Assembly: GCF_036231355.1 (NCBI RefSeq)
Contig: NZ_CP109496.1
Coordinates: forward strand, 1,860,001 to 1,924,000
Length of the DNA stretch: 64,000 bases
Origin: Streptomyces sp. NBC_01431
GTDB lineage: Bacteria > Actinomycetota > Actinomycetes > Streptomycetales > Streptomycetaceae
Direction: 5' to 3'
Shown: positions 18,897-37,005 of the stretch, piece by piece
How positions within the stretch are numbered: position 1 is the stretch's first letter
Layout: each line of letters opens with the position of its first letter
Position numbers and translations under genes: made by a program
Notes under the pieces: generated by a model
Told to the model about the DNA's origin: nothing
Databases searched by the model: none
Seen by the model: only the letters and a program-made list of their open reading frames with translations

Positions 18897-19820
18897 TCAG
18901 AGGTTGGTCATGTCGACCGGGATCTGCGGCTCGACGCCGTCGCGCAGGACGGTCGCCTCGATGAGCCCGTACGGACGGTCCGCCGCGAAGTAGACCTCGT
19001 TGTCGTTCTTGAGCCCGAACGGTTCGAGGTCCACCAGGAAGTGGTGCTTGTTCGGCAGCGAGAAGCGAACCTCGTCGATCTCGGACCGGCTGTTGATGAT
19101 GCGCGAACCCATCTGGTACAGGGTCTGCTGGAGCGAGAGCGAGTACGTCTCGGCGAAGGCCTGGAGCATGTGCTTGCGCACCTGCTCGTAGGACTTCTCC
19201 CAGTTGGGCGCCTTCTGCTCGTCGTCGGTCCAGTTGAACCGCCAGCGGGCCGAGACCTGGGTCGCCAGGATGCGGTCGTAGGCCTCCTGGAGCGTCGTGT
19301 ACTTGTCCTTGACGTAGCCCCAGAACTCGGAGTTCGTCGAGTTCATCACGACCAGGTCCTTGAGGCCGGAGATGACCTCCCACTTCTCACCGTCGTAGGT
19401 GATCTGGGTGACCCGGGTCTCCTGGCCCTTGCGGACGAAGGAGTGCTTGACCTCGTCCGAGCCGATGAACTTCGAGTTGGCGTCGGAGGTCTCGATGCGC
19501 TCCCACGAGTACTCCTCGATGCGGATCCGCGCGATCTTGATCGGCTCCTGCGAGGTCACGAAGTGCCGCGCGAGGTGGATGCCGAACTGCTCGGCGGACT
19601 CGATGCCGTACTCCTTGGCGAACGCGTACACCGTGTTCTTGGTGGTGTCGGTCGGCAGGCAGTTGGCGTTCGAGCCGGAGTAGTGCACGTCCGCCATGTC
19701 GCCGGACAGGGCGACGGAGACGTTGAGGTCCTTGATGTGGTGCGTGTCGCCGTCCCGCGTGATCTTGACGACGCGGTTCTCTGCTTTGCCGTACTGGTTC
19801 TGGCCGAGAATCGTGGGCAT
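18897..19820 (-). CDS. Uricase (factor-independent urate oxidase)
   Basis: A 307-residue cofactor-free enzyme oxidising urate with O2 to 5-hydroxyisourate and H2O2. It starts MPTILGQNQYGKAENRVVKI. Lys12 and Thr57 in LPTDTTKNTVYAFAKEYG correspond to the catalytic Lys-Thr pair, and the T-fold signature EVRFSLPNKHHF is present. Start ATG 19820 follows GGGAG. It sits between uraH and the purine permease. The peroxide it makes explains why catalase shares the promoter element found before uraD. Confidence 0.97.
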   Translation of the reverse strand: MPTILGQNQYGKAENRVVKITRDGDTHHIKDLNVSVALSGDMADVHYSGSNANCLPTDTTKNTVYAFAKEYGIESAEQFGIHLARHFVTSQEPIKIARIRIEEYSWERIETSDANSKFIGSDEVKHSFVRKGQETRVTQITYDGEKWEVISGLKDLVVMNSTNSEFWGYVKDKYTTLQEAYDRILATQVSARWRFNWTDDEQKAPNWEKSYEQVRKHMLQAFAETYSLSLQQTLYQMGSRIINSRSEIDEVRFSLPNKHHFLVDLEPFGLKNDNEVYFAADRPYGLIEATVLRDGVEPQIPVDMTNL

Positions 19821-19825
19821 GTCTG

Positions 19826-20224
19826 CTAGCTCCCTCGGTAAACGGAGTAGCCGAACGGGTTGAGCAGCAGCGGTACGTGATAGTGCTCGCCCGGCTTGAC
19901 GGCGAAAGTGATCGCCACCTCCGGGAAGAACGCACCGCTGTCCCTTACGCGGGGGGCGTCCTGCTGCGCCTCGGCTTGCTTCTTGTCGTTCTTGCTGAAG
20001 TACCCCTCGACCTCGAAGTCGAGTCGTACGTGGGTGGTGCCTTCCGGCAGGGCCGGCAGGTCCTTGCAGCGGCCGTCCGCGTCGGTCGCGGAGCCGCCGA
20101 GCGCGATCCACTCGGCGTCGGAGCCCGAGCGGGCCGCGAGCGAGATGGCGACGCCTTCGGCGGGGCGTCCGATGCTGGTGTCCAGGATGTGCGTGGACAC
20201 CGAGGCGGTGGTCGCGGTGCTCAT
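19826..20224 (-). CDS. uraH: Hydroxyisourate hydrolase
   Basis: A 132-residue transthyretin-like enzyme converting 5-hydroxyisourate to OHCU. Active-site motifs are VSTHILDTSIGRPAEG near the N-terminus, HVRLDFEVEGYF in the middle and the diagnostic C-terminal YRGS. The ATG overlaps the uraD stop by one base, and uricase starts 6 bp after its end, so it is in the middle of a tight operon. Confidence 0.97.
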   Translation of the reverse strand: MSTATTASVSTHILDTSIGRPAEGVAISLAARSGSDAEWIALGGSATDADGRCKDLPALPEGTTHVRLDFEVEGYFSKNDKKQAEAQQDAPRVRDSGAFFPEVAITFAVKPGEHYHVPLLLNPFGYSVYRGS

Positions 20225-20748
20225 CAGTCCTTGTCCCCTTCTTCTGCTGTTTCTACGAGACGGGTCAGCCGGATTCGGTTGATCTTCCCGAGTTCGGTGC
20301 GCACGATCTCGCGCTCCTCCTCGGCGGTGTTGCCGATCCGGGTCTTCACGGCGTCGCGCATCTGCTCACCGGTGGCGCCGGTGGCGCAGATCAGGAAGAC
20401 ATGGCCGAACTTCTCCTGGTAGGCCAGGTTCAGTTCGAGCAGCTCGGCCTTGAGGGCCTCGGAGGCCCCGGCCATGCCGCGCTGTTCGCGGGCGGACGTG
20501 GGGTCGCCGGGCTTCGGCCGACCGATCGGCGGGTGCCCGGCCATCGCCTCTTCGAGGTCCTGCACGGTCAGCTCGGCCAGAGCGGCGTCACTGGCTGTGA
20601 AGAGATCCTCTGCGGTGGCGTACGGGCGCCGGGCGAGCAGTTTGCTCCCCCACGCCGAACTGGCGCACACCTCGTGGAGTGCGGCCAGAGCCGCACTGTC
20701 CTGGGAGGTGTTGAACCGGGTGAGGCCCGGTGTCGGAGTCGAAGTCAC
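20224..20748 (-). CDS. uraD: OHCU decarboxylase
   Basis: A 174-residue enzyme making S-allantoin from 2-oxo-4-hydroxy-4-carboxy-5-ureidoimidazoline. It shows the catalytic segment AGHPPIGRP and the family signature HVFLICATGATGEQM. Start GTG 20748 has GGAGG five bases upstream; the frame stays open to 20808 but without a better start. It is the first gene of the uraD-uraH-uricase-permease-deaminase operon and lies 65 bp below a strong inverted-repeat element. Confidence 0.95.
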   Translation of the reverse strand: MTSTPTPGLTRFNTSQDSAALAALHEVCASSAWGSKLLARRPYATAEDLFTASDAALAELTVQDLEEAMAGHPPIGRPKPGDPTSAREQRGMAGASEALKAELLELNLAYQEKFGHVFLICATGATGEQMRDAVKTRIGNTAEEEREIVRTELGKINRIRLTRLVETAEEGDKD

Positions 20749-20809
20749 GGCGGCCTCCGTGGCCTTGGTGCTGAACGGGCTGCGGCTAGCTAACGCCCTC
20801 CGAAACATC

Positions 20810-20830
20810 CCGTCAACACTTTGTTGAAAA
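20810..20830 (-). promoter_or_regulatory. Operator-like element upstream of uraD
   Basis: On the minus strand this reads TTTTCAACAAAGTGTTGACG, with the perfect inverted repeat TCAACA-N3-TGTTGA at 20813-20827. The TTGACG end can serve as a -35 box, with TTAGCT or TAGCTA 17-18 bp below. It differs by one base from the element before catalase. Confidence 0.75.
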
Positions 20831-20915
20831 CTTGGGGTTACAAAAACCGCCGCCCGGTGTCCGGACGGCGGCTCGTCGCGCGAAGGGTGCCTGAGCGGGC
20901 ACCGAGGGTGCTCGT

Positions 20916-21338
20916 TCAGTCGCCCTTGGGGCCGTTTCCCCTGTTCAGATCCCTGTTCAGGTAGTTGTACACGGTGAAGCGGCTGACCCCGAGCGCGGCG
21001 GCGACCGTCTCCACACCGTGTCGCACCGAGAACGCGCCGCGCGCCTCCAGAGTCCGGACGACCGACTGCTTGGCCTTGCGGTCCAGGCCCGCGAGCGGCA
21101 TGCCGTACCGGCGCTCCATGGCGGCCAGGATGTGATCGAGGGAGTCGGACAGCTGCGGGAGGCGCACCGCCACCACGTCCTCACCCTCCCAGGCGAGCAC
21201 CACGTCGTCGGGGTCGGCGTGTCCGGGGGCCAATATCTCGGCACCCATGGCATCGACCAGCGGCTTGACCGCCTGGATCAGAGGGTGGTCCGCGGGCTCG
21301 GTCGCCCGCGTAAAGGACTGGTCCGCCGATTCGGTCAC
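20916..21338 (-). CDS. DauR/YheO-like helix-turn-helix regulator
   Basis: A 140-residue DNA-binding protein. The C-terminal helix-turn-helix AFSVRHGVETVAAALGVSRFTVYNYLNRDL (residues about 100-130) is of the HTH_22 (DauR-like) type. The N-terminal part resembles the PAS-like YheO sensor region but is short. GTG 21338 overlaps the end of the thiamine-binding-like gene. It lies between the uricase operon and hyi, so it is a candidate regulator of one or both; there is no direct evidence. Confidence 0.8.
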   Translation of the reverse strand: MTESADQSFTRATEPADHPLIQAVKPLVDAMGAEILAPGHADPDDVVLAWEGEDVVAVRLPQLSDSLDHILAAMERRYGMPLAGLDRKAKQSVVRTLEARGAFSVRHGVETVAAALGVSRFTVYNYLNRDLNRGNGPKGD

Positions 21339-21586
21339 TTCTCACCCTCCCCGATCACATTGACCTGGAGCGAGACGCGGGTCGCGCCCGCCGCCAGGGC
21401 CTTGCGCAGCAGCGCGTCCACGGCGGTCAGCACGTCGTCGGCACCGCCTTCCGCGGTGTTGCCGAACGGACCGACGTCCACGGCGTCCAGCTGGGCCGCC
21501 TGGATGACGTCGCGGGCGACCACGGCATGCGGGGGCGCCTCGTCCAGGTCGAAGGGCTCGGTCGTGAACTCCACTCTCAATCGCAC
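21335..21586 (-). CDS. Thiamine-binding-like protein (DUF77 family)
   Basis: An 83-residue ferredoxin-fold protein. VGPFGNTAEGGADDVLTAV and the C-terminal AGATRVSLQVNVIG match the DUF77/MTH1187 family, members of which bind thiamine or related small molecules. Start GTG 21586. It is translationally coupled to the HTH gene, and both are divergent from hyi. It could be a ligand-sensing partner of that regulator, by inference. Confidence 0.75.
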   Translation of the reverse strand: MRLRVEFTTEPFDLDEAPPHAVVARDVIQAAQLDAVDVGPFGNTAEGGADDVLTAVDALLRKALAAGATRVSLQVNVIGEGEK

Positions 21587-21658
21587 GGGCTCAACCTACT
21601 GCGCGGCCGACGAAATCCGGGAGGCCCACTTGACAAGCCCGCCGGTCCCACTGCAACC

Positions 21659-21694
21659 TTCCATCAAGCAGAAAATAACTTCCGCGATACGGAA
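21659..21694 (+). promoter_or_regulatory. Paired 15-bp operators upstream of hyi
   Basis: Box B TTCCATCAAGCAGAA (21659-21673) and box A TTCCGCGATACGGAA (21680-21694) are offset by 21 bp. Box A overlaps the hyi ribosome binding site GGAAGGAG, so a bound repressor could also block translation. The region is shared with the divergent DUF77-HTH pair. Confidence 0.8.
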
Positions 21695-21710
21695 GGAGCG
21701 CACACCCCTC

Positions 21711-22544
21711 ATGGGATACACGGACCAGCGCTTCGATGTGAACCTCTCGATCCTCTTCACGGAACTCCCGCTCCTGGAGCGCCCCGCGGCCGCCGCCGCG
21801 GCGGGCTTCACGGCGGTCGAGCTGTGGTGGCCCTGGATCGAAACCCCCACCCCCGAGCAGGCCGAGCTCGACGCCCTGAAAAAGGCGCTCGATGACGCCG
21901 GCACCCAGCTCGTGGGCCTGAACTTCTACACCGGCGCGCTGCCCGGCCCGGACCGCGGCGCCCTTTCGGTACCCGGCGAGGAGTCGGACCGCTTCCGCGC
22001 CAACATCGAGGTGGCGGCCGACTTCGCCGCCTCGGTGGGCTGCAAGGCGCTCAACGCGCTGTACGGCAACCGCGTCGAGGGCGCAGACCCGCAGGTGCAG
22101 GACACCCTCGCCCTGGAGAACCTCGTCCTGGCGGCCCGCGCGGCCGACCGGGTCGGCGCGATCCTCCTGGTCGAGACCCTCAACAAGCCGGAGTCGCCGC
22201 TCTACCCGCTGGTGAGCGCGCCCTCCGCCATCGAGGTCATCGACAAGGTGAACGCGGCGACAGGCCTTGGCAACGCCAAGTTCCTGCTCGACATCTACCA
22301 CCTGTCGATGAACGGCGAGAACGTCCGCGAGGTCATCGAGGCGTACGCGGACAAGACCGGCCACGTGCAGATCGCCGACAACCCGGGCCGCGGCGCGCCG
22401 GGCACCGGCTCGCTGCCGCTGGAGGAGCTGCTCGACCAGCTCAAGAAGGCGGGCTACGCCGGCTGGGTCGGCCTGGAGTACAAGGCCCCCGACGCCGCCG
22501 CCTCCTTCGATTGGCTCCCCGCCGAGGCCCGCGCGGCGAGCTGA
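21711..22544 (+). CDS. hyi: Hydroxypyruvate isomerase
   Basis: A 277-residue TIM-barrel enzyme interconverting hydroxypyruvate and tartronate semialdehyde, acting with Gcl and GlxR. Metal and catalytic residues are visible in ILLVETLNKPESP (Glu), FLLDIYHLSMNGENV (Asp, His), HVQIADNPGR and VGLEYKAP (Glu). Start ATG 21711 is preceded by GGAAGGAG at a somewhat long spacing. It forms an operon with glxR, 50 bp downstream. Confidence 0.96.
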   Translation: MGYTDQRFDVNLSILFTELPLLERPAAAAAAGFTAVELWWPWIETPTPEQAELDALKKALDDAGTQLVGLNFYTGALPGPDRGALSVPGEESDRFRANIEVAADFAASVGCKALNALYGNRVEGADPQVQDTLALENLVLAARAADRVGAILLVETLNKPESPLYPLVSAPSAIEVIDKVNAATGLGNAKFLLDIYHLSMNGENVREVIEAYADKTGHVQIADNPGRGAPGTGSLPLEELLDQLKKAGYAGWVGLEYKAPDAAASFDWLPAEARAAS

Positions 22545-22594
22545 CCGCGCACCCGAACTTCTTGACGTACCACCGCAGTTAGAGAGGCACCCTC

Positions 22595-23485
22595 ATGAGC
22601 AACCTCCCCAAGATCGCATGGGTCGGCCTCGGAATCATGGGCTCCCCCATGTCCGAGAACCTGATCAAGGCCGGCTACTCGGTCACCGGGTTCACCCTGG
22701 AGCAGGACAAGCTGGACCGCCTCGCGGCGGCCGGCGGCACCGTGGCGGGCTCGATCGCCGAGGCGGTCAAGGACGCCGACGTCATCATCACGATGGTCCC
22801 GGCATCCCCGCAGGTGGAGGCCATCTCGTACGGTGAGGCCGGCATCCTGGCCAACGCCGGGCGGGGCGCGCTGATCATCGACATGTCGTCGATCACCCCG
22901 CAGACCTCGGTCGACCTCGCGAAGAACGCCGCCGAGAAGGGCATCCGCGTTCTGGACGCCCCCGTCTCCGGCGGCGAGGCCGGCGCGATCGAGGCCGTCC
23001 TGTCGATCATGGTGGGTGGCGAGCAGGCCGACTTCGACGAGGCGCTGCCGATCCTTCAGGCCCTCGGCAAGACCATCGTCCTGTGCGGCCCGCACGGCTC
23101 CGGCCAGACGGTGAAGGCCGCCAACCAGCTCATCGTCGCGGTCAACATCCAGGCCTGCGCCGAGGCGGTCGTCTTCCTGGAGAAGTCGGGCGTGAACCTG
23201 ACGGCCGCCCTGGACGTCCTGAACGGCGGCCTGGCCGGCTCCACGGTCCTGACCCGCAAGAAGGACAACTTCCTGAACCGCGACTTCAAGCCCGGCTTCC
23301 GGATCGACCTGCACCACAAGGACATGGGCATCGTCACCGACGCCGCCCGCAACGTGGGCGCGGCCCTTCCGGTCGGCGCGGTCGTCGCCCAGCTGGTCGC
23401 CTCGCTGCGCGCCCAGGGCGACGGCGGTCTGGACCACTCCGCCCTGCTGCGCGCCGTCGAGCGCCTCTCGGGCTCGCAGGTCTGA
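22595..23485 (+). CDS. glxR: 2-hydroxy-3-oxopropionate (tartronate semialdehyde) reductase
   Basis: A 296-residue beta-hydroxyacid dehydrogenase reducing tartronate semialdehyde to glycerate. It has the NAD(P) motif GLGIMGSPMSENL, the substrate loop DAPVSGGEAGA and catalytic Lys174 in GSGQTVKAANQLI. Start ATG 22595 follows AGAGAGGCACCCTC. It is second in the hyi operon, and the Gcl gene that supplies its substrate lies 12 kb away beyond the accessory island. Confidence 0.97.
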   Translation: MSNLPKIAWVGLGIMGSPMSENLIKAGYSVTGFTLEQDKLDRLAAAGGTVAGSIAEAVKDADVIITMVPASPQVEAISYGEAGILANAGRGALIIDMSSITPQTSVDLAKNAAEKGIRVLDAPVSGGEAGAIEAVLSIMVGGEQADFDEALPILQALGKTIVLCGPHGSGQTVKAANQLIVAVNIQACAEAVVFLEKSGVNLTAALDVLNGGLAGSTVLTRKKDNFLNRDFKPGFRIDLHHKDMGIVTDAARNVGAALPVGAVVAQLVASLRAQGDGGLDHSALLRAVERLSGSQV

Positions 23486-23593
23486 CCCGCTGAAACACCC
23501 CTTTGGGGGTCCCCAGATTTCCGGTCGGCGGCGGCGCTGACACCTGTCCTGTCGCGCCCAGGCGTCGCCGCCGTCCGGAAGCTCACTCCATCA

Positions 23594-23637
23594 TTTTCAA
23601 CAAACTGTTGACGTTCCGTTCCAGGCCTCCTTACGCT
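23594..23637 (+). promoter_or_regulatory. Catalase promoter with operator identical in design to that of uraD
   Basis: TTTTCAACAAACTGTTGACG (23594-23613) contains the perfect repeat TCAACA-AAC-TGTTGA. TTGACG (23608) can be the -35 box, with TACGCT (23632) as -10 after an 18-bp spacer, so a bound protein would cover the -35. Confidence 0.75.
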
Positions 23638-23687: not shown

Positions 23688-25154
23688 ATGTCGAAGCGCG
23701 TGCTTACGACCGAGTCCGGCGCCCCCGTCGCCGACAACCAGAACTCCGCCACCGCCGGCGTCGGTGGCCCCATCCTGCTCCAGGACCAGCACCTCCTTGA
23801 GAAGCTCGCGCGCTTCAACCGTGAGCGCATCCCGGAGCGCGTGGTGCACGCCCGCGGCTCCGGCGCGTACGGCTACTTCGAGGTGACGGATGACGTCACC
23901 GGCTTCACGAAGGCCAACTTCCTCGGCGAGGTGGGCAAGCGGACCGAGACGTTCATCCGCTTCTCCACCGTGGCCGACTCGCTCGGCGGCGCGGACGCGG
24001 TGCGCGACCCGCGCGGCTTCGCCCTGAAGTTCTACACCGAAGAGGGCAACTACGACCTCGTCGGCAACAACACCCCGGTGTTCTTCATCAAGGACCCGAT
24101 CAAGTTCCCCGACTTCATCCACTCCCAGAAGCGCGACCCCTTCACGGGCAAGCAGGAGCCGGACAACGTCTGGGACTTCTGGGCGCACGCCCCCGAGGCC
24201 ACCCACCAGATCACCTGGCTCATGGGCGACCGCGGCATCCCGGCCTCGTACCGTCACATGAACGGCTACGGCTCGCACACCTACCAGTGGACGAACGCGC
24301 AGGGCGAGGCCTTCTTCGTCAAGTACCACTTCAAGACCAACCAGGGCATCCGCTCGCTCTCCGCCGAGCAGGCTGCCGAGACGGTCGGCAAGGACGCCAA
24401 CAGCCACCAGACGGACCTGCTCCAGGCCATCGAGCGCGGCGTGAACCCGTCCTGGACGCTGTACGTCCAGATCATGCCCGCCGCCGAGGCCGCGGACTAC
24501 CGCTTCAACCCGTTCGACCTCACCAAGGTGTGGCCGCACAGCGACTACCCGCTGCAGCGCGTGGGCCGTCTGGTCCTGGACCGCAACCCCGACAACGTCT
24601 TCGCCGAGGTCGAGCAGGCCGCCTTCTCCCCGAACAACTTCGTTCCGGGCATCGGCCCCTCGCCCGACAAGATGCTCCAGGGCCGCCTGTTCGCCTACGC
24701 CGACGCGCACCGCTACCGCCTGGGCGTCAACCACACCCAGCTCCCGGTCAACGCACCGAAGGCTGTTTCTGGGGGGAGTGCCGACAACTACGGCCGCGAC
24801 GGGCTGATGGCGACCCGCAACGGCCGCCGTACCGACAAGAACTACGAGCCCAACTCGTACGCGGGTCCCGCCCAGACCGACGCGGCCCTGTCGGCCCCGC
24901 TCGCGATCCACGGCTACACGGGCACGCACGCCGCCCCGGCCCACGTGAAGGACGACGACTTCTTCCAGGCGGGCGAGCTCTACCGCCTGATGTCGGACGA
25001 CGAGAAGGCCCGTCTCATCGCGAACATCGCCGGCGGCCTCTCGCAGGTCACCCGCGACGACGTCATCGAGAAGAACCTGGCCCACTTCCACGCCGCCGAC
25101 GCCGACTACGGCAAGCGCGTCGAGGAGGCCGTCCGCGCCCTGCGCGAGGACTAG
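23688..25154 (+). CDS. katA: Monofunctional haem catalase
   Basis: A 488-residue small-subunit catalase. The distal His is in [13 protein letters not shown] and the distal Asn in [11 protein letters not shown]. The [29 protein letters not shown] block is standard, and the proximal haem Tyr is in [14 protein letters not shown]. It removes H2O2, and its place and promoter element suggest it serves uricase. Start ATG 23688 follows GGAAGG. A strong terminator follows. It marks the left border of the accessory island. Confidence 0.98.
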
Positions 25155-36969: not shown

Positions 36970-37005
36970 TTCCGTAATGCGGAAGTTTAGTTCTGCTATG
37001 TGGAA
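36970..37005 (-). promoter_or_regulatory. Paired 15-bp operators upstream of gcl
   Basis: On the plus strand box A is TTCCGTAATGCGGAA (36970-36984), a perfect TTCCG-N5-CGGAA. Box B is TTCTGCTATGTGGAA (36991-37005), whose complement is TTCCACATAGCAGAA. The offset is 21 bp, as before hyi and aceB. Confidence 0.82.

Follow-up and report, generated by a model that had tools for sequence, protein, structure and literature searches.

An HTH_22 protein as candidate regulator of a 20-bp operator-like element before the uricase operon and a catalase gene in Streptomyces

The uricase–catalase locus and its two elements

The 64,000-nucleotide (nt) stretch of Streptomyces sp. NBC_01431 analyzed here (contig NZ_CP109496.1, positions 1,860,001 to 1,924,000; hereafter the window) harbors the uricase operon uraD-hiuH-uox and the catalase gene katA, which are preceded by near-identical elements of 20 base pairs (bp). 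The minus strand carries, in order, a small partner gene, a helix-turn-helix (HTH) gene, a stem-loop with a U-run, the first element, uraD, hiuH, and uox, and the plus strand carries hyi, glxR, the second element, and katA. The operon encodes 2-oxo-4-hydroxy-4-carboxy-5-ureidoimidazoline (OHCU) decarboxylase (uraD, 20224..20748, minus strand; PF09349 and NCBIfam UraD_2), 5-hydroxyisourate hydrolase (hiuH, 19826..20224, minus strand; PF00576), and urate oxidase, or uricase (uox, 18897..19820, minus strand; TIGR03383, 364 bits vs. a cut-off of 168.4). The katA gene (23688..25154, plus strand) encodes a monofunctional catalase (PF00199), and Pfam also assigned isomerase-like and dehydrogenase neighbors. 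The HTH gene (20916..21338, minus strand) encodes an HTH_22 protein of 140 amino acids (PF13309, E 2.2e-19), the candidate regulator. The partner gene (21335..21586, minus strand) begins with GTG and encodes a protein of 83 amino acids with a predicted MTH1187/YkoF-type (Thiamine_BP-like) fold, the candidate ligand sensor. The stem-loop and U-run between the HTH gene and the element (20840..20876, minus strand, approximate ends) form a probable terminator as judged by folding. The 66-nt stretch holding the stem-loop reached −33.1 kcal/mol (z −2.6), with 4 of 200 shuffles equally good, and the stem-loop was not among the two matches of a consensus terminator scan. Its presence suggests that the regulator gene is transcribed separately from its target.

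The two 20-mers described in a first-pass annotation of this DNA were both located by pattern search of the window and the genome, TTTTCAACAAAGTGTTGACG before uraD (20811..20830, minus strand) and TTTTCAACAAACTGTTGACG before katA (23594..23613, plus strand). Each contains a perfect TCAACA-N3-TGTTGA dyad and the two differ at a single base, as that annotation had stated; the differing base, which it had placed at the dyad center, is the last of the three spacer bases, beside the axis. With a 20-mer pattern containing one free base and up to 3 mismatches allowed, two matches were obtained in the window and none in 100 shuffled windows. The whole genome (8,976,559 bases) yielded just the same two sites, and the reversed control pattern gave no genome match at this tolerance. 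The bare dyad TCAACA-N3-TGTTGA occurs in the genome at four perfect and 15 one-mismatch places vs. 6 for the reversed control, and the other two perfect dyads fail the 20-mer pattern at 3 mismatches. A generic promoter, the reading under which the element would stand before many unrelated genes, is at odds with a genome scan that gave two sites only. By these searches, the element resembles an operator confined to the uricase operon and katA and not a generic promoter.

The listed uraD start at 20808 would leave 3 bp between the start codon and the element. The start was taken as the GTG at 20748, which is preceded by GGAGG and at which homology to other loci begins; the element therefore lies ∼60 bp upstream of uraD, at a distance suited to a promoter. 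Conservation was assessed in 80 loci, all from Streptomyces, that a search with the HTH protein ranked highest among 510 confirmed relatives. The element is found directly upstream of uraD in all 80 loci, with one dyad mismatch in L043, and it remains with uraD in the two loci (L033 and L061) where the distance between the HTH gene and uraD is larger. katA is present in 52 of the 80 loci and is preceded by the element in all 52, namely, 50 identified by script and two (L037 and L045) in which katA is frame-split or interrupted and the element is still there. The 18-bp core TTCAACAAA[CG]TGTTGACG is exact in 79 of the 80 uraD upstream regions, with one change in the remaining one, and in all 50 katA upstream regions analyzed, i.e., in 129 of 130 sites.

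The proposal that the TTGACG end of the element can serve as a −35 box held up in this comparison. TTGACG (20811..20816, minus strand, before uraD; 23608..23613, plus strand, before katA) is invariant in 80/80 uraD and 50/50 katA sites, and at every one of these a TA-starting hexamer follows 17–19 bp downstream. The corresponding −10 boxes in the window are TAGCTA for uraD (20787..20792, minus strand) and TACGCT for katA (23632..23637, plus strand), both 18 bp from the −35 box. Across the loci compared, the uraD −10 box reads TAGCT[AG] in all 80 (spacer of 18 bp in 69 and 19 bp in 11), and the katA −10 box reads TANNNT in 50 (spacer of 18 bp in 43 and 17 bp in 7). The final CG of TTGACG falls outside the dyad symmetry, yet it is invariant, in keeping with a −35 role; given the downstream hexamers, TTGACG is very likely the −35 box. 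Three of four sites outside the genus also read TTGACG-N17/18-TANNNT, as judged by eye. Most uraD promoters contain an additional TGTTG-like half-site, 11 bp downstream of the right one, that is absent from the katA consensus.

Distribution of the element with katA and the HTH_22 gene

For counts by genome, matches to the element at up to 2 mismatches (boxes) were compared with the presence of katA in 150 genomes of the same genus, a linked katA ortholog being defined by at least 84% identity, where other catalases listed showed ∼70%. The ortholog was found in 86 of the 150 genomes, all of which carry at least two boxes, and the 64 genomes without it have one box (54 genomes), none (5), or two (5). 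The box lies 60–136 bp upstream of katA on the same strand in all 51 cases checked by place (of the 86). Three of the five two-box exceptions (G009, G124, and G024; loci L237, L238, and L239) hold remnants of katA downstream of a box whose core carries one change, and in G082 (L127) katA is split across two frames. The last, G044, has no intact katA ortholog, and its second box lies outside the 12 kb taken. In L033, the box persists after glxR, and no katA was found in that locus. Additional sites occur in some genomes, and the recurrent one inspected (L195) precedes allantoinase, as in the present genome (L009).

The HTH protein, put forward at first pass as a candidate regulator, emerged as the best candidate by co-occurrence, co-loss, and adjacency across families. 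Within the genus, the box is present in 145 of the 150 genomes and the HTH protein in the identical 145 (counting G010, where the HTH match is split); the remaining five have neither. The sample outside the genus comprised 354 genomes of the class, and the box was found at 0–1 mismatch in five of these. In four of them (G195, G454, G455, and G509, from three families), the HTH gene lies immediately upstream of the box, at a distance of 29–160 bp, with uricase genes downstream. G153, which was not searched for the HTH protein, has a match with one mismatch and none of the related genes nearby (L206). In two loci of one genus (L202 and L203, from G195 and G454), the box immediately precedes uricase and permeases of the xanthine/uracil type, and uraD lies several kb away. 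Boxes at two mismatches outside the genus were rejected as chance, as 19 of the 354 genomes matched at up to 2 mismatches (14 of them at 2 mismatches only) and the reversed control also matched in 19 of 354.

The association with uricase was examined in 80 hand-chosen genomes outside the genus, including the four box genomes. Uricase was present in 42 and an HTH match in 5 of the 80, and the box (0–1 mismatch) occurred only in the four genomes with the HTH gene beside uricase genes. The box is missing from 38 of the 42 uricase genomes, and 37 of those 38 have no HTH match at E ≤ 1e-8. The Fisher p for HTH vs. box, with G202 not counted as an ortholog, was 9e-6 over the 42 uricase genomes and 1.7e-4 by genus. 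Since uricase genomes outside the genus have the box only where the HTH gene adjoins, the box follows the HTH protein and not uricase. The HTH_22 protein of G202 was rejected as an ortholog, being 36% identical (E 1.2e-10) and matching in the HTH domain only, and the 3.2 kb surrounding its gene yielded neither a partner gene nor a uricase gene; if G202 is counted, the box is present in 4 of 5 HTH genomes. In the four outgroup genomes, uraD identity is just 34–37% and the operator core is identical or one base off. The HTH segment FTVYNYLNR is identical across the window, the 80 loci, and the four outgroups. Two genomes showed changes in both gene and site. G294 contains uraD-hiuH-uox without the HTH gene and without the element, which looks like one deletion. 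G010 has a frameshifted HTH gene and a mutated left (outer) half-site, with the −35 and −10 region intact.

The partner protein, known regulators, and a second operator type

The first-pass annotation, sound in naming the HTH protein as a candidate regulator, overlooked the partner gene, which is fused to the HTH gene in two other genomes. The partner and HTH genes overlap by 4 bp in 80/80 loci, counting the HTH gene from the first in-frame start codon close to the stop of the partner gene. The two form one open frame in L130 and L137 (two genomes from other families) and are separate in L136. The window partner scored 22.9 bits with PF01910 (Thiamine_BP), under the Pfam cut-off of 24.9, and had no NCBIfam match at E ≤ 0.01; among the outgroups, the fused L130 protein (41.2 bits) and the L136 protein (41.9 bits) scored above the cut-off and the fused L137 protein (19.8 bits) below it. 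The AlphaFold model of the partner, built with 12 sequences, has a predicted local distance difference test score (pLDDT) of 89.2 and a ferredoxin-like fold. Its best PDB matches in Foldseek were DUF77 of Bacillus cereus (E 5.3e-6), TM0486 (E 2.0e-4), MJ1052, SP2199, and MTH1187 (E 7.2e-4), with YkoF lower. In a PDB sequence search with the HTH and partner proteins, all matches had E > 0.3. Members of the MTH1187/Thiamine_BP family bind thiamine or its pyrimidine, and the Pfam name agrees on thiamine. As a ligand-binding fold is here linked, by coupling or fusion, to a DNA-binding domain next to uricase genes, the modeled partner is somewhat likely to be the sensor.

Among known regulators, the C-terminal HTH_22 domain (PF13309, 69.7 bits vs. 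a cut-off of 29.6) is common to the window protein and the DauR/YheO-type regulators, which carry an N-terminal PAS_6/YheO-like domain. Unlike these, the window HTH protein has no other Pfam domain at E ≤ 0.001, and its system includes the small partner gene (Thiamine_BP in the fused outgroups) and is tied to uricase and catalase genes. The predicted ferredoxin-like fold is shared by the partner and the MTH1187/DUF77/YkoF family (PF01910); the partner scores just under the Pfam cut-off and, unlike that family, is coupled or fused to a DNA-binding domain. HucR and PecS are urate-responsive MarR regulators. Like these and XdhR, which regulate or respond to purine breakdown, the proposed regulator would act on this pathway, and it differs from them in that Pfam shows HTH_22 and no MarR or TetR domain. 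In passages of the XdhR paper, the S. coelicolor protein is linked to xdhABC, guanosine tetraphosphate (ppGpp), and actinorhodin genes, and its main text does not mention uricase (PMC6627660).

The boxes before hyi and gcl had been described as a site different from the 20-bp elements, which proved correct. TTCCGCGATACGGAA before hyi (21680–21694) and TTCCGTAATGCGGAA before gcl (36970–36984) are of an operator type with TTCC/GGAA arms; unlike these TTCCG-N5-CGGAA boxes, which are presumably AllR boxes, the 20-bp elements have TCAACA-type arms. TTCCG-N4..6-CGGAA occurs in the window at 21680, 36970, and 49852, and at neither 20-bp element. AllR, a member of the IclR family, acts on neighboring pathway steps and is described, in passages of PMC12772271, as the allantoin-pathway repressor in Streptomyces. 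Of the proposed division into an upper (urate) and a lower (glyoxylate) regulon, the distinct hyi and gcl boxes stand and the clean split does not, as allantoinase carries both box types. In the present genome, a dyad variant of the TTCAACAG-NN-[CA]GTTGAA type lies upstream of allantoinase at G000:C1:1856073-1856087 (L009, 1501–1515), 3.9 kb before the window. Allantoinase, a possible third target, was identified in 58 of 61 genomes, and 30 of its loci were compared; the variant dyad is present upstream in 28 of these (all except L222 and L233) and TTCC-N5..7-GGAA boxes in 23. Within 400 bp of allantoinase, the dyad is missing in G010, where the HTH gene is frameshifted, is present in G037, and was not found in the four outgroup genomes.

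Proposed mechanism and alternative readings

In the mechanism proposed here, the regulator would consist of the HTH_22 protein and its translationally coupled MTH1187/YkoF-like partner. A dimer would contact the two TCAACA half-sites, whose centers are 9 bp apart, on one DNA face, at an operator overlapping a near-consensus −35 box at two loci 2.8 kb apart (uraD-hiuH-uox and katA). Owing to this overlap, the bound dimer would hinder RNA polymerase, and the ligand-free regulator would most likely block it. A purine-breakdown ligand, most likely urate or else a later intermediate, would bind the partner, release the regulator, and allow H2O2-forming uricase and catalase to be produced jointly. 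Joint control of uricase and catalase had been suggested at first pass, and comparative genomics (site specificity, conservation, and katA linkage) backs it; the HTH protein probably serves the cell to coordinate production of the enzyme that makes peroxide and the one that destroys it. The parts of this model are not equally firm, the grading being our judgement and not a computed one. The 20-bp element is almost certainly an operator and the HTH_22 protein is highly probable as its binder, whereas control by repression is fairly likely and urate as the ligand has about an even chance. As a whole, a urate-relieved repressor of uraD-hiuH-uox and katA formed by the HTH_22 protein and its partner appears likely.

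A broader reading, held tentatively at slightly under an even chance, is that of a split one-component sensor of urate or purine breakdown, in which an MTH1187/YkoF-type ligand binder would work with a separate or fused HTH_22 domain reading TCAACA-N3-TGTTGA. Such a sensor would pair uricase with catalase across Streptomyces and act on uricase genes in three or more further families of actinomycetes. The operator–regulator pairing with an unusual sensor candidate would be new here, and in the open-licence literature no description of the element or of the HTH_22/partner pair was found among the matches listed. If true, the model would give the urate-to-allantoin operon of most Streptomyces a regulator and an operator, offer a clear case of a peroxide-making oxidase tied to its own catalase via one switch, and assign a function to the HTH_22 and MTH1187-like pair, which could provide a compact new uric acid sensor.

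In S. coelicolor, SCO6204 is presumably, by gene order, the katA ortholog, and SCO6208 may on the same grounds encode the HTH_22 protein, its label then being misleading. In passages of PMC3897704, SCO6208 is listed as a putative transposase. Passages of the SenR study describe a SenR-dependent lowering of uraD-hiuH-uox (SCO6209–SCO6211) and a SenR site predicted 51 nt upstream of SCO6209 and absent from the fragments tested (PMC4991794). SCO6209 changed along with other purine-degradation genes, with no catalase named, in passages of PMC6629963, and SCO6204 was slightly lowered when SCO3201 was over-expressed, in passages of PMC7324645. A urate response is not among the conditions in the passages of these last three studies.

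Several observations weigh against joint repression of the two loci by the HTH_22 protein. The SenR study reports, in the passages concerned, that catalase synthesis was not elevated, without naming SCO6204 (PMC4991794), and movement of katA with uraD is neither shown nor refuted in the passages of PMC4991794, PMC6629963, or PMC7324645. The HTH gene adjoins the uraD box, so the co-occurrence within the genus is partly linkage; of the five genomes without box and HTH protein, four are also devoid of uricase, and the contig of G050, the fifth, breaks off inside uraD. The changes in G010 and in G294 were each seen once, and the one in G010 may be an assembly error. The model of the HTH protein is weaker than that of the partner (pLDDT 78.8; predicted template modeling score, pTM, 0.52), and its fold search gave no PDB match at E ≤ 0.001. 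A perfect dyad also precedes allantoinase in G120, which has no HTH ortholog, and a second protein may read similar sites. The dyad center at about −39, as derived from promoter spacing, would suit an activator too.

The allantoinase dyads, in 28 of 30 loci and in G120, together with the adjacency of the HTH gene to the uraD box, would also fit an operator for a regulator encoded elsewhere, e.g., a MarR/IclR-type urate or allantoin regulator, with the HTH gene as a conserved neighbor. This is distinctly improbable in view of the genomes outside the genus, where 38 of 42 with uricase have no box, 37 of them no HTH protein, and all four with a box, in three families, have an adjoining HTH gene, and of G294, where HTH and box were lost together and uricase was kept. 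The position of the dyad center and the absence of a final T from the uraD −10 box, TAGCT[AG], in 80/80 loci would agree with the HTH_22 protein being a urate-switched activator (class II, in contact with region 4 of sigma at −35) instead of a repressor. Activation is nevertheless unlikely, as the −35 box comes close to consensus and conserves its CG end beyond the dyad symmetry, as in a strong but blocked promoter, and as G010, in the one case of a frameshifted HTH gene, keeps the −35 and −10 region and has just the outer half-site altered.

Repression through a dedicated operator also has to be set against the element being no more than a sigma-70-type promoter of unusual quality that has no regulator of its own, a reading for which TTGACG and a TA-starting hexamer 17–19 bp on are present in every case analyzed. 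This has hardly any probability, and the generic-promoter reading was rejected: such a promoter would be widespread, whereas the genome holds two matches, and the left half, TTCAACA, is as invariant as the −35 box, though it is needed by no sigma-70 promoter.

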